Shown: positions 905 to 5,633 of the stretch, piece by piece
Position numbering within the stretch: position 1 is the stretch's first letter
Layout: the number at the start of each line of letters is the position of its first letter
Made by a program: the position numbers and the translations under genes
Notes under the pieces: generated by a model
What the model saw: the letters and a program-made list of their open reading frames with translations, nothing else
The model's database searches: none
Told to the model about the DNA's origin: nothing
Source of the DNA: Candidatus Bathyarchaeota archaeon
GTDB lineage: Archaea; Thermoproteota; Bathyarchaeia; 40CM-2-53-6; FEN-987
Length of the DNA stretch: 5,912 bases
Assembly: GCA_003152955.1 (NCBI GenBank)
Contig: PMBQ01000262.1
Coordinates: 1 to 5,912 of the forward strand
Reading direction: 5' to 3'

Positions 905-1147
905 ATGCCAAAAACACTGATGCAGTCTGTAGTCACCCAACTCCAGAAGGAACGTACACGACTTGACAATGAACTGCACCGCGTAACAGCGGCCCTGACC
1001 GCTTTCGGGAAGGTCTACATGCATGGAAGCAAACCGAAAGCTGCAACTCGCAAAAAGCGGACAATTTCGGCTGCCGGACGAAGGAGAATTGCGGCTGCCC
1101 AGAAAGCTCGTTGGGCAAAGTGGAGAAAGAGCGCGAAGAAGCGTTAG
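905..1147 (+). CDS. Small basic coiled-coil protein with a KARW-type tail
   Basis: An 80-residue protein in two parts. Residues 6-35 form an amphipathic, charged helix (QLQKERTRLDNELHRV) suited to coiled-coil dimerisation. Residues 42-80 are very rich in Lys, Arg and Ala, with the block AAAQKARWAKW at 63-73. Similar short proteins with a helical head and an AAAQxARWAK tail are, as I recall, common in Acidobacteria and annotated as hypothetical. The basic tail suggests nucleic-acid binding, rather like a histone-H1-type tail, but this is inference and no defined DNA-binding domain is visible. The start has a proper ribosome binding site. The gene is divergent from the gene ending at 145 and convergent with the XRE gene, sharing two stop-codon bases with it. 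Confidence 0.75.
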   Translation: MPKTLMQSVVTQLQKERTRLDNELHRVTAALTAFGKVYMHGSKPKAATRKKRTISAAGRRRIAAAQKARWAKWRKSAKKR

Positions 1148-1416
1148 AGCCCCTGCTGCTTGCCTACCAACACGTGACGCTCAACGGATTGCAAGAGACT
1201 GGACGGCTTCATTCCGAAAGCTTCAGCGAAATCAAAAATCGCTGCCAGTGAAGGACTTTTCTCTCCCCTCTCAAGCTGGCCCACGTAATTTCGGTGATAT
1301 CCGGTTTTATGAGCCAGAGCGTCCTGGGAAATCCCTTGCTTTAGGCGAAGGTTTCGCAGTGTGAGGCCGAACGCTTTTCTCGGATGCAGTCGCCTGGGCC
1401 TGCTCTTTTTGAGCAT
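1144..1416 (-). CDS. XRE-family helix-turn-helix transcription regulator
   Basis: A 90-residue Cro/C1-type repressor. The HTH domain spans about residues 16-76: LRNLRLKQGIS, then the scaffold helix QDALAHKTG (31-39), the recognition region YHRNYVGQLERG (40-51), the usual KSPSLAAIFDFAEAFG, and a closing PSSLL. A basic leader (residues 2-14) precedes it and only a short tail follows, so there is no peptidase, sensor or toxin domain. ATG 1416 is the first usable start, because an in-frame stop lies five codons upstream; AGGG directly abuts it, so the ribosome binding site is poor. Its 5' end faces the promoter at 1434-1463, making the downstream cluster and itself the obvious regulatory targets. 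It converges on the small basic gene, with which its stop codon overlaps. Confidence 0.92.
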   Translation of the reverse strand: MLKKSRPRRLHPRKAFGLTLRNLRLKQGISQDALAHKTGYHRNYVGQLERGEKSPSLAAIFDFAEAFGMKPSSLLQSVERHVLVGKQQGL

Positions 1417-1492: not shown

Positions 1493-1783
1493 ATGCGGTT
1501 CCTTCTGAACACAGCCTCACTCGTCCTCTTAGCGAGTTTTCTGTCCGAGATGTCTTTAGCCCAGAAGACCATGTCTGCATTCGCTTCCCTCCAGAGGGTA
1601 CGGCGTCCGCGGCCATTGGGGGCAAGGGATGAACATTCTCAAGAAGTTCGCCATTCTGTGGACCATTGTGATGATTATTGCGTCCATTGCAGCCTTGATG
1701 GCCATTCAGATTGTCTGCGTGGTTCGCGCCAAGCGCGGCGTTTTCAGTGTGGACACCTTTTTATGGTTAATAGGAGAACGTAA
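1493..1783 (+). CDS. Short ORF with a signal peptide; downstream frame doubtful
   Basis: As it stands the frame encodes 96 residues. The first 24 look like a signal peptide: MRFLLNTASLVLLASF, then SEMSLAQ with possible cleavage near residue 23. The start is backed by a strong ribosome binding site and promoter. Beyond about residue 46 the same bases code far better in the frame of the membrane protein at 1629: third-position GC there is about 72%, against about 35% in this frame, whose product turns His- and Cys-rich as wrong-frame translations often do. Two outcomes are possible. The gene may have lost its true end by a frameshift near 1590, since the neighbouring frame reads to a stop that overlaps the next start as ATGA at 1629-1632. 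Or the stop at 1781-1783 is real, as it forms a TAATG junction with the next gene. Function unknown, probably a small exported protein. Confidence 0.35.
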   Translation: MRFLLNTASLVLLASFLSEMSLAQKTMSAFASLQRVRRPRPLGARDEHSQEVRHSVDHCDDYCVHCSLDGHSDCLRGSRQARRFQCGHLFMVNRRT

Positions 1784-1949
1784 TGGAATCCCTGCTCTGG
1801 CAATCCCTACTTGTAGCGATCTGCATTGGTGTGATTCCGGCTTTCATAGCACACTCGAAAGGTCGCAGTTTCGTTGCGTGGTGGTTTTACGGGGCGGCAC
1901 TCTTCATTGCCGCCTTGCCCCATTCTCTGATCATCAAGCCGGATGCTAA
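1629..1949 (+). CDS. Small single-pass membrane protein, 3' end uncertain
   Basis: The protein begins MNILKKFAILWTIVMIIASI: a short basic head, one transmembrane helix at about residues 7-31, then a basic cytoplasmic stretch VRAKRG. Third-position GC of about 72% up to about position 1757 marks it as coding. The frame then runs on to 106 residues, overlapping the next gene by 167 bases; that tail has no sensible character and crosses the ribosome binding site and start of the zinc-ribbon gene. A tandem stop TAA TAG at 1768-1773 sits in the next frame just after a run of five T (1758-1762), so a one-base slip there, in evolution or in the sequencing, would give a neat product of about 46 residues. 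The ribosome binding site is weak, with an AGGG touching the ATG. No family recognised. Confidence 0.5.
   Translation: MNILKKFAILWTIVMIIASIAALMAIQIVCVVRAKRGVFSVDTFLWLIGERNGIPALAIPTCSDLHWCDSGFHSTLERSQFRCVVVLRGGTLHCRLAPFSDHQAGC
1772..1776 (+). promoter_or_regulatory. Ribosome binding site of the zinc-ribbon gene
   Basis: AGGAG lies 6 bases before ATG 1783 and fixes that start. Confidence 0.65.
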
Positions 1950-2358
1950 GCAGATTGAACGCGAACAACTCCAGTCCGGAAACAATCGCAAATGTCCATT
2001 TTGTGCAGAAATAATTAAGGTTGAGGCACGAGTCTGCAGGTTTTGCGGGAGGGACCTTCCTGAATATAAGAGCGACGCAGACGCCGCCGTGAGCGGGAAA
2101 CTCGTGGAGCCGTCGGAAAGAACAAGGGAAGCGCAGATAAATTGTGCCACCTGTAAGTTCCCTAATCCTCCAGATGCGATGCTGTGCATCAACTGTGGCA
2201 GCCTCGTGAGGCCTACTGTTCAGCCAGGTGCACAGCGGCACGCTGTTAGGAGTTTCGATACCGTTCAAATTGCCGTGATTCTAGTGGTTATCGTGCTGTT
2301 TGGCGGCCTTGTATGGTTCGCTCTCGTTGAATGGTCGATGCAAGGCGGGGCGAAGTGA
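1783..2358 (+). CDS. Membrane protein with two zinc ribbons
   Basis: A 191-residue protein. The N-terminus has two hydrophobic segments (about 7-23 and 31-52) joined by IPAFIAHSKGRSF (18-30), a motif that recurs in bacterial membrane proteins linked to zinc ribbons. Next comes a zinc ribbon of the UPF0547 type, KCPFCAEIIKVEARVCRFCG, with C71, C74, C85 and C88. After an acidic linker a second ribbon follows, CATCKFPNPPDAMLCINCG, with C121, C124, C135 and C138. A C-terminal transmembrane helix lies at about 162-182. Such ribbons usually bind Zn2+ structurally and mediate protein contacts; the precise role is unknown. It is the last gene of the cluster behind the 1434-1463 promoter and has its own good ribosome binding site. 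A regulatory or sensing role at the membrane is possible but unproven. Confidence 0.85.
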   Translation: MESLLWQSLLVAICIGVIPAFIAHSKGRSFVAWWFYGAALFIAALPHSLIIKPDAKQIEREQLQSGNNRKCPFCAEIIKVEARVCRFCGRDLPEYKSDADAAVSGKLVEPSERTREAQINCATCKFPNPPDAMLCINCGSLVRPTVQPGAQRHAVRSFDTVQIAVILVVIVLFGGLVWFALVEWSMQGGAK

Positions 2359-2661: not shown

Positions 2662-2667
2662 AGGAAG
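2662..2667 (+). promoter_or_regulatory. Ribosome binding site of kwaA
   Basis: AGGAAG lies 5 bases before ATG 2673, supporting that start. Confidence 0.6.
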
Positions 2668-2672
2668 CCGAA

Positions 2673-3194
2673 ATGCCTAATCTTCCAACCAGAGTAGTGC
2701 TCTTCCTAAGTTCCTACACACCCCTGTTTCTGATCATGGCCGTGAAATACGGGCGGGCCCACTGCTATTTTGCGCTGGCGATGGTTCTGCTAGGTGGGAT
2801 TTCCGTAGCCTTACTCTTGTTCTACTTGAAACGCTCTTCCGACCTTGCGATTGATCATGTGAAAGTCGAGAAAATCTCGGGTAAAGACACGGAGGCCATG
2901 AGTTACATCTTCACGTACTTGATCCCATTCTTGGACATCAAGATAGACGAGTTGTCCAGCTCACTCGCGCTTCTGTTGCTCTTTTTCGTTGTCGGTGTGC
3001 TCTACGTTAATTCGAACCTTATTTACATCAACCCGACCCTTAATCTGCTGAGGTACCATTTGTTTGAGATCGAACTCGAAAGCGGGAAGACAAGTGCCCT
3101 GCTTTCGAAGCGAGGCTTTGTCGAGCGAGGCACTTCAATCGCTGTCGTTTCACTGGGGGAGCAGATCCTCTTGGAGATACCCGATGCCAGTTGA
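2673..3194 (+). CDS. kwaA: Kiwa anti-phage system membrane protein KwaA
   Basis: A 173-residue integral membrane protein. Hydrophobic segments lie at about 8-25 (VVLFLSSYTPLFLIMAV), 31-52 (FALAMVLLGGISVALLLFYL), a shorter one at 77-88 (SYIFTYLIPFLD), and 97-119 (LLLLFFVVGVLYVNSNLIYI), giving the four-helix plan described for KwaA. The conserved-looking TYLIPF and the INP turn (119-121) are as I recall for the family. A soluble tail of about 45 residues follows. In the published Kiwa system KwaA is the membrane component that works with KwaB to stop phage infection from the membrane. The decisive evidence is its partner: the next gene is a DUF4868 protein starting inside the end of this one, the standard Kiwa arrangement. 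On its own the sequence would only say small multi-pass membrane protein. Confidence 0.8.
   Translation: MPNLPTRVVLFLSSYTPLFLIMAVKYGRAHCYFALAMVLLGGISVALLLFYLKRSSDLAIDHVKVEKISGKDTEAMSYIFTYLIPFLDIKIDELSSSLALLLLFFVVGVLYVNSNLIYINPTLNLLRYHLFEIELESGKTSALLSKRGFVERGTSIAVVSLGEQILLEIPDAS
3173..3176 (+). promoter_or_regulatory. Ribosome binding site of kwaB, inside kwaA
   Basis: GGAG lies 7 bases before ATG 3184 and is embedded in the last codons of kwaA. It chooses this start over the in-frame ATG at 3064, which would add 40 residues of out-of-frame kwaA sequence. Confidence 0.7.
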
Positions 3195-4134
3195 ACAGGC
3201 GCTTAGGCGAATTAGACGAGAGATGGCGGGGCCCCCTCCTGTAAACGTGGTCCTCGGCTCTCGTACAAATCCTAACCAGCAAGACGATCTTCGTAGACTC
3301 ACCATTACAGCGACTCTCCAAGCTAGCTTTCGCGAAATTGCGGGGAACGCTCTCGCTGACCAGCTCAGACTTATCGCCTATGAACCGGGATACAAGCCTG
3401 ACAGCGGCGAGGTTTGCTGGATTGATCTGCAGCAAGCCCCCGAGATCTCAGAAATCGTCCAACGAGTCCTGAATTTTCAGGCGCTTGTCATCTTTGAGGA
3501 GGACGATGATTTCATTGAATCTCTAGTCTATCACGCTCTCTTTGCCCGAGTGGCTGCGCAGAGAGGGGTTGTGTTCTTCCGTAAGACCAGCGAAAAACTG
3601 GTGCTGGGCCGTGGCGCATCGTTCGCAGCAATCTTTAGAAGGGGGCACTTCGATAGGATCGAAGAAACGGTTTTCCTGTTCGACCGCAACATCGACTGCT
3701 GGTCTGATGGACGGTACATGTTCATCAATAGTGTCGGCAACTTCGAGCGCATGTTTCGCTATTTCGAACAACTGCAGACCAGAGCCCAACAGACCGTGGA
3801 CGCAGTTCTGCAGCGGGTTCCCATATCGAACGCTGATGAGTTCCGAGCAGCTTGTACAACACAGGTTCGGTTCATGACTAAGCTCGCAGTGATAAACAGC
3901 AAACCGTACCTGGCACAAATTGGTATGGCCGATATACGTCGCGCGATCGACGAGCATGGGCTACCTGTTGAGGTTGTTCAGGAGAATGGCCAGGAGATGC
4001 TCGTGTTCGACCCTGACCCGAGTCGTCGATGGATTCTGCTGAAATTGCTCGATGATGACTACCTGAATTCTGTGATGACACACCTTAGATACGAAGTAAA
4101 CTCAAAGATTGCCAGCCCCGTACAGACAAACTGA
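3184..4134 (+). CDS. kwaB: Kiwa anti-phage system protein KwaB (DUF4868)
   Basis: A soluble protein of 316 residues, about the usual length for KwaB. Recognisable DUF4868 features are the block LFDRNIDCWSDGRYMFI with NFERMFRYFE (165-195), the RFMTKLAVI segment (229-237), and the C-terminal signature LLKLLDDDYLNSVMT with RYEVNSK (285-308), where KwaB proteins typically read LL.DDYL...LT...YE..SK. There is no signal peptide or membrane helix, so it is cytoplasmic and probably docks on KwaA. In studied systems KwaB is the effector, reported to bind DNA and interfere with phage replication or expression; that is family knowledge, not visible here. The start overlaps kwaA by 11 bases with its own ribosome binding site, implying coupled translation. 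No frameshift or missing segment is seen, so the system looks intact. Confidence 0.87.
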   Translation: MPVEQALRRIRREMAGPPPVNVVLGSRTNPNQQDDLRRLTITATLQASFREIAGNALADQLRLIAYEPGYKPDSGEVCWIDLQQAPEISEIVQRVLNFQALVIFEEDDDFIESLVYHALFARVAAQRGVVFFRKTSEKLVLGRGASFAAIFRRGHFDRIEETVFLFDRNIDCWSDGRYMFINSVGNFERMFRYFEQLQTRAQQTVDAVLQRVPISNADEFRAACTTQVRFMTKLAVINSKPYLAQIGMADIRRAIDEHGLPVEVVQENGQEMLVFDPDPSRRWILLKLLDDDYLNSVMTHLRYEVNSKIASPVQTN

Positions 4135-4961: not shown

Positions 4962-5633
4962 GTGCCTACACGTCTTCAGTTAAGTCCAGAAGAAAAGGAT
5001 TCAAAGAATGTTCCCAGGATCTTGTTTGCCCGGATCGGTTGGATGAAGCGATATGACGGCTCGGCCAAAGATGATCCAGGACCAATTGGTGGAGGCAGCT
5101 ACAACAAGGAACATAAAGGCAGTGAGCTCTACAATTTTCATAGTCACCAGGGATGGGTGTACGGATTTATCCAGCCAGCTTCCCAAGGCCGCAGGACACT
5201 ACGCACGCTGAATCTCATTCGAATAGCTCCTGGACAAAACGAAGCAGAACTGAGGAACGTTTTGATCGTTTTCGTCGCGAAGTCCGAAGGAACGGGTCCC
5301 CAGGTTGTCGTTGGATGGTATCGAAATGCAACGGTGTTCGGAACAGAAAGAAGCGGAACCTTGCATGGCCAGAGCAGGCGGTATTTTGCTAGGACGAAAT
5401 CCAGTCATGCCTGTTTGCTGAGAGCGGATGCACGTGACTGTAAAGTTAAGCGAAAAGAGATCGGTATTGGGCAGTCGAACGTGAGCTACGTTTACTCTGA
5501 CGAGGGCGAACTGAGACCGCTGCCGGGGTTACGCCGGGTGCTTTCCCTAATCGAGGCAACCCGACCAGAGGATTTGCAGAGTTTTTGTGTCGAGTGCCAC
5601 TCCGTGCCAACGAAACGGAAATCCAGGGGCTAA
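4962..5633 (+). CDS. Protein with a PUA/EVE-like domain of restriction-associated type
   Basis: A 223-residue protein with the likely domain core at about residues 18-182. Family-like blocks are ILFARIGWMKRYDG (20-33), GGGSYNKEHKGSELYNF (43-59), VYGFIQP (66-72), LIVFVAK (101-107), QVVVGWYRNATVF (114-126) and IGQSNVSYVY (169-178). From memory, this block order occurs in proteins annotated as HNH endonucleases or hypothetical, and resembles PUA/EVE-like modules that recognise modified bases. No HNH motif is seen, so here it stands alone. The last 40 residues add a basic tail and a C-x-x-C pair (C209, C212). The start is uncertain: TAA at 4950 closes the frame upstream, GTG 4962 is the first usable codon and has no close ribosome binding site, and the next alternative is a TTG at 5022. 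Cytoplasmic. The fold assignment is inference. Confidence 0.75.
   Translation: MPTRLQLSPEEKDSKNVPRILFARIGWMKRYDGSAKDDPGPIGGGSYNKEHKGSELYNFHSHQGWVYGFIQPASQGRRTLRTLNLIRIAPGQNEAELRNVLIVFVAKSEGTGPQVVVGWYRNATVFGTERSGTLHGQSRRYFARTKSSHACLLRADARDCKVKRKEIGIGQSNVSYVYSDEGELRPLPGLRRVLSLIEATRPEDLQSFCVECHSVPTKRKSRG

Follow-up and report, generated by a model that had tools for sequence, protein, structure and literature searches.

Do the two overlapping genes at positions 2673-4134 of this 5,912-nucleotide stretch of Candidatus Bathyarchaeota DNA (contig PMBQ01000262.1; the whole stretch is hereafter the window) make up a complete Kiwa anti-phage system, and if so, how close is it to the Kiwa systems already studied? 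We consider it highly probable (roughly 0.93) that 2673-4134 is an intact two-gene Kiwa operon of a sequence-divergent branch. Profiles and predicted folds assign both proteins to the KwaA and KwaB families, their genes overlap, and the pair occurs across phyla; the profile matches and predicted folds support the original prediction, made from the sequence alone, of a complete two-gene Kiwa operon.

The first gene, kwaA (2673..3194, forward strand), encodes a membrane protein of 173 amino acids with a beta-rich C-terminal part, and the second, kwaB (3184..4134, forward strand), encodes a KwaB/DUF4868 protein of 316 amino acids. Both frames are open along their full length. The two intact open reading frames (ORFs) of 173 and 316 codons, their 11-bp overlap (3184-3194) and the predicted motifs TYLIPF, INP, DDYLNSVMT and RYEVNSK were all found in the sequence. 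The mechanical ORF list gives the kwaB frame an earlier start, a TTG at 3064; relatives of KwaB start where the 3184 ATG does ("MPAEQAL..."), and just 5' of that ATG lies TTGGAG (3171..3176, forward strand, within the end of kwaA), a candidate ribosome-binding site. AGGAAG (2662..2667, forward strand) is a candidate ribosome-binding site for kwaA.

The search of both proteins against KwaA and KwaB (DUF4868) profiles that had been proposed as a check found both families. KwaB matches Pfam PF16162 (Kiwa protein KwaB-like) at 3.6e-14, with 53.6 bits against a cut-off of 26.3, and 11 PADLOC KwaB models, the best at 8.9e-19, so that the product of 3184-4134 has the significant DUF4868 match on which its identification depended. 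KwaA is matched by 14 PADLOC KwaA models (best 2.1e-28), one of which, PDLC00221, is matched end to end (4-171 of 173), and a newer Pfam accession, PF28043, is precomputed on 117 of the 120 listed KwaA relatives. When the Protein Data Bank was searched by sequence, the only matches at E <= 0.001 were Kiwa chains for both proteins (5.3e-11 and 1.1e-10 for KwaA, 1.1e-05 for KwaB), and a branch profile stretches the KwaB match to nearly the whole solved chain (profile 4-309 on chain 4-310).

Hydropathy, the model and the fold match all show KwaA to be a membrane protein, and thus the first gene has the membrane topology that the prediction required of it. With 19-residue windows, hydropathy marks two segments as strong (window starts 29-36 and 89-102) and a third as borderline (starts 6 and 8, score 1.64). 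The AlphaFold model has helices at 4-14/16-26, 31-55, 72-87 and 94-113, followed by the beta-rich C-terminal part, and its fold alignment with solved KwaA runs across 169 residues. The earlier description of a four-segment membrane protein therefore holds as to the membrane, while the count of four comes from the model and the structural match and is not given by hydropathy. A membrane protein encoded beside kwaB, the feature by which KwaA is recognized in Kiwa, is accordingly present. The predicted model of KwaB has the overall fold of the solved structures, with a mostly helical C-terminal part that includes one beta hairpin (263-274). Both models are of monomers; the supercomplex of a KwaA tetramer with KwaB dimers in the membrane is what we take to be a membership feature of Kiwa, along with anti-phage activity and binding of DNA by KwaB.

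Solved Kiwa (9mrx, 9mrg, 9mrr, 9mtn, 9nyu, 9o0i) consists of two proteins with the same folds as the window pair. The TYLIPF and INP region of the window KwaA aligns with TYIVPF and ANP of solved KwaA, and the C-terminal region of solved KwaB is of the DUF4868 type, like that of the window protein. The N-terminal half of the window KwaB resembles the solved chains by profile or by fold, a likeness that a single-sequence search does not show. Identity between the solved and window proteins is 13-18% in the fold alignments, and the window KwaA is about 20 residues shorter (173 amino acids versus 195 in chain 9mrg_A). This low identity and short KwaA, along with scores for both proteins under the NCBIfam equivalog cut-offs (NF041622/NF041623; 84 bits against 100 for KwaA, 64.5 against 200 for KwaB), could be taken to mean that the pair has the parts and fold of Kiwa with a different trigger or effector step, such as another KwaB target. 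We regard such a functional variant as unlikely, as a PADLOC KwaA model of the same length, PDLC00221, is matched, the C-terminal region of KwaB aligns with the solved protein, and the kwaA-kwaB gene order is retained. Equally doubtful is the related proposal of a distinct Kiwa branch, with a short KwaA and a diverged N-terminal half of KwaB, in which phage sensing or targeting would be unlike that of studied Kiwa. PADLOC models already cover such short KwaA proteins, and Kiwa of the window's sort is therefore already known to PADLOC.

Besides the missed NCBIfam cut-offs, several points weigh against an intact Kiwa operon. The KwaB model lies at a root-mean-square deviation of 6.1 A from 9mtn_B and has low-confidence residues at 138-159 and 302-316, and a scan of KwaA against the Pfam-A release used gave no match at E <= 1. 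A promoter scan found none above chance (2 sites against 1.2 expected, neither of them 5' of kwaA on its strand), and our literature search turned up no member of the window's Kiwa branch whose defence activity had been measured. Distances between KwaA proteins correlate with those between KwaB proteins (r 0.853, 0 of 5000 permutations, n = 19), but such co-divergence would also be expected from shared species history alone.

Relatives were sought in a database of 5.8 billion proteins at E <= 1e-3. KwaB had 74 matches, one of them the window's own, leaving 73 others, with identity from 88% downwards; KwaA had 121, with identity from 92% downwards, and among the 120 listed the window's own was not marked. 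Such numbers of relatives are more than chance would give. Several matches to the two proteins share longest-contig sizes (36477, 118461, 45820, 43952, 9233, 8672 and 8362), which suggests that they form pairs. Organism labels are few; those among the KwaA relatives include Bryobacteraceae (P0159, 38% identity) and Ktedonobacteraceae (P0165, 41%). A KwaB relative labelled Candidatus Bathyarchaeota archaeon (P0065, 38%) is a possible archaeal Kiwa. Another database protein, P0074, is dCTP-deaminase-like, and its C-terminal end shares 81% identity with that of the window KwaB; a fusion, a recombination scar and an assembly chimera are candidate explanations.

With one genome taken per species, we found 22 genome loci with a KwaB relative, under titles from the Acidobacteriota, Chloroflexota, Actinomycetota, Dormiibacterota, Sumerlaeota and Ignavibacteriales, and 18 of them are metagenome-assembled. 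Directly upstream of kwaB is kwaA in 20 of the 22, and in half of the loci measured (9 of 18) the two mechanical ORFs share 4 bp. The closest KwaA among titled genome loci, 57% identical to the window's, belongs to the metagenome-assembled genome (MAG) Acidobacteria MAG SZAS-4 (locus L003), where some 0.9 kb separates kwaA from an upstream gyrase-A gene. There kwaB is broken into two ORFs (8001-8935) while kwaA is open. This split gene, and the fragmentary look of ORF 145-969 in the window (reverse strand; Pfam REase-ARP, a restriction-enzyme profile, at positions 21-79 of 270 and below threshold, 24.7 of 27 bits), might suggest that the window locus is likewise decayed and non-functional. Both window frames, however, are fully open, and the whole length of KwaB aligns with relatives, at identities of up to 88%, so that decay is very improbable.

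A kwaA-kwaB pair is also found in Edaphobacter sp. RYN_3 (locus L005), with KwaA 45% and KwaB 44% identical to those of the window. One ORF (8803-9237) follows that Kiwa, and then C5 DNA methyltransferase and HNH-endonuclease ORFs, within 9234-11343; Pfam, PADLOC and NCBIfam scans showed no such ORFs in the window's 1.8 kb 3' of kwaB.

In the tree of KwaA, the window protein clusters with protein-database copies and Acidobacteria MAG SZAS-4 in a branch of 10 rows (99/95; bootstrap not settled). Among 396 Acidobacteriota genomes, 3 had a KwaB match, two of these being source genomes of the loci studied; among 400 Chloroflexota genomes, 14 had one, three of them likewise source genomes. An acidobacterial origin of the genes is plausible from these sequences. 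The original prediction had placed the operon in a probable acidobacterium, a placement that the 57% KwaA identity and the 99/95 branch support weakly; no feature of the window that we tested establishes the host.

Other genes in the window make a defence-rich neighbourhood plausible, as judged from domain matches. ORF 145-969 may be a remnant or frame-broken. A helix-turn-helix (HTH) protein (1144-1416, reverse strand; Pfam HTH_3, 5.2e-14) also matches the restriction control-protein models of PADLOC (2.3e-14) and many other HTH families. ORF 1783-2358 (forward strand), which ends 314 bp 5' of kwaA, has a double zinc ribbon (Pfam DZR, 1.1e-08) and hydrophobic ends. ORF 4962-5633 (forward strand) matches no Pfam, NCBIfam or PADLOC model at E <= 1; a search at E <= 1e-3 gave it 76 relatives in addition to the window protein itself, many of them longer proteins that also have a NOV_C/DUF3883 or HNH domain, which lies in the C-terminal third of the three scanned (P0207, P0252, P0268). 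The shared part is perhaps a target-recognition domain. Another relative, P0265, has an MqsA-antitoxin match, and two short ones are source-named 5-methylcytosine-specific restriction protein or enzyme A, a name that is only a hint because the scanned one of the two, P0197, matches no Pfam family. None of the window's flanking genes was found beside kwaAB in 26 loci, where the only other cross-hits were to an HTH protein in L005 and to shadows of kwaB on the opposite strand. PADLOC matched none of the flanking ORFs scanned at L001 (two) and L003 (four).

By homology, the window pair would act against phage as studied Kiwa does. In published accounts, KwaA is the membrane sensor of infection; KwaB binds the injected DNA and halts replication and late transcription without cutting the DNA. 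One report (PMC11514479) describes a two-gene Kiwa of Streptococcus thermophilus whose protection reached 5 and 4 logs for two lactococcal phages but only about 1 log for the streptococcal phages that were tested. It draws on a 2023 preprint for inhibition of host RNA polymerase as the Kiwa trigger, for a pathway that depends on RecBCD, and for an effect that KwaB has in the absence of KwaA. It also predicts KwaB to have an alpha/beta domain at the N-terminus and an all-helical one at the C-terminus, which our model broadly resembles. A literature search that combined Kiwa with Acidobacteria, soil and defense systems returned nothing about Kiwa, judged by title.

Kiwa is already a described two-gene system of bacteria against phages, and the window operon is therefore a new example of it and not a new kind of system. 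It adds a divergent yet complete pair to a known defence family and is otherwise ordinary. Positions kept both in the window's branch and in solved Kiwa could narrow down the KwaA and KwaB residues that the mechanism needs.
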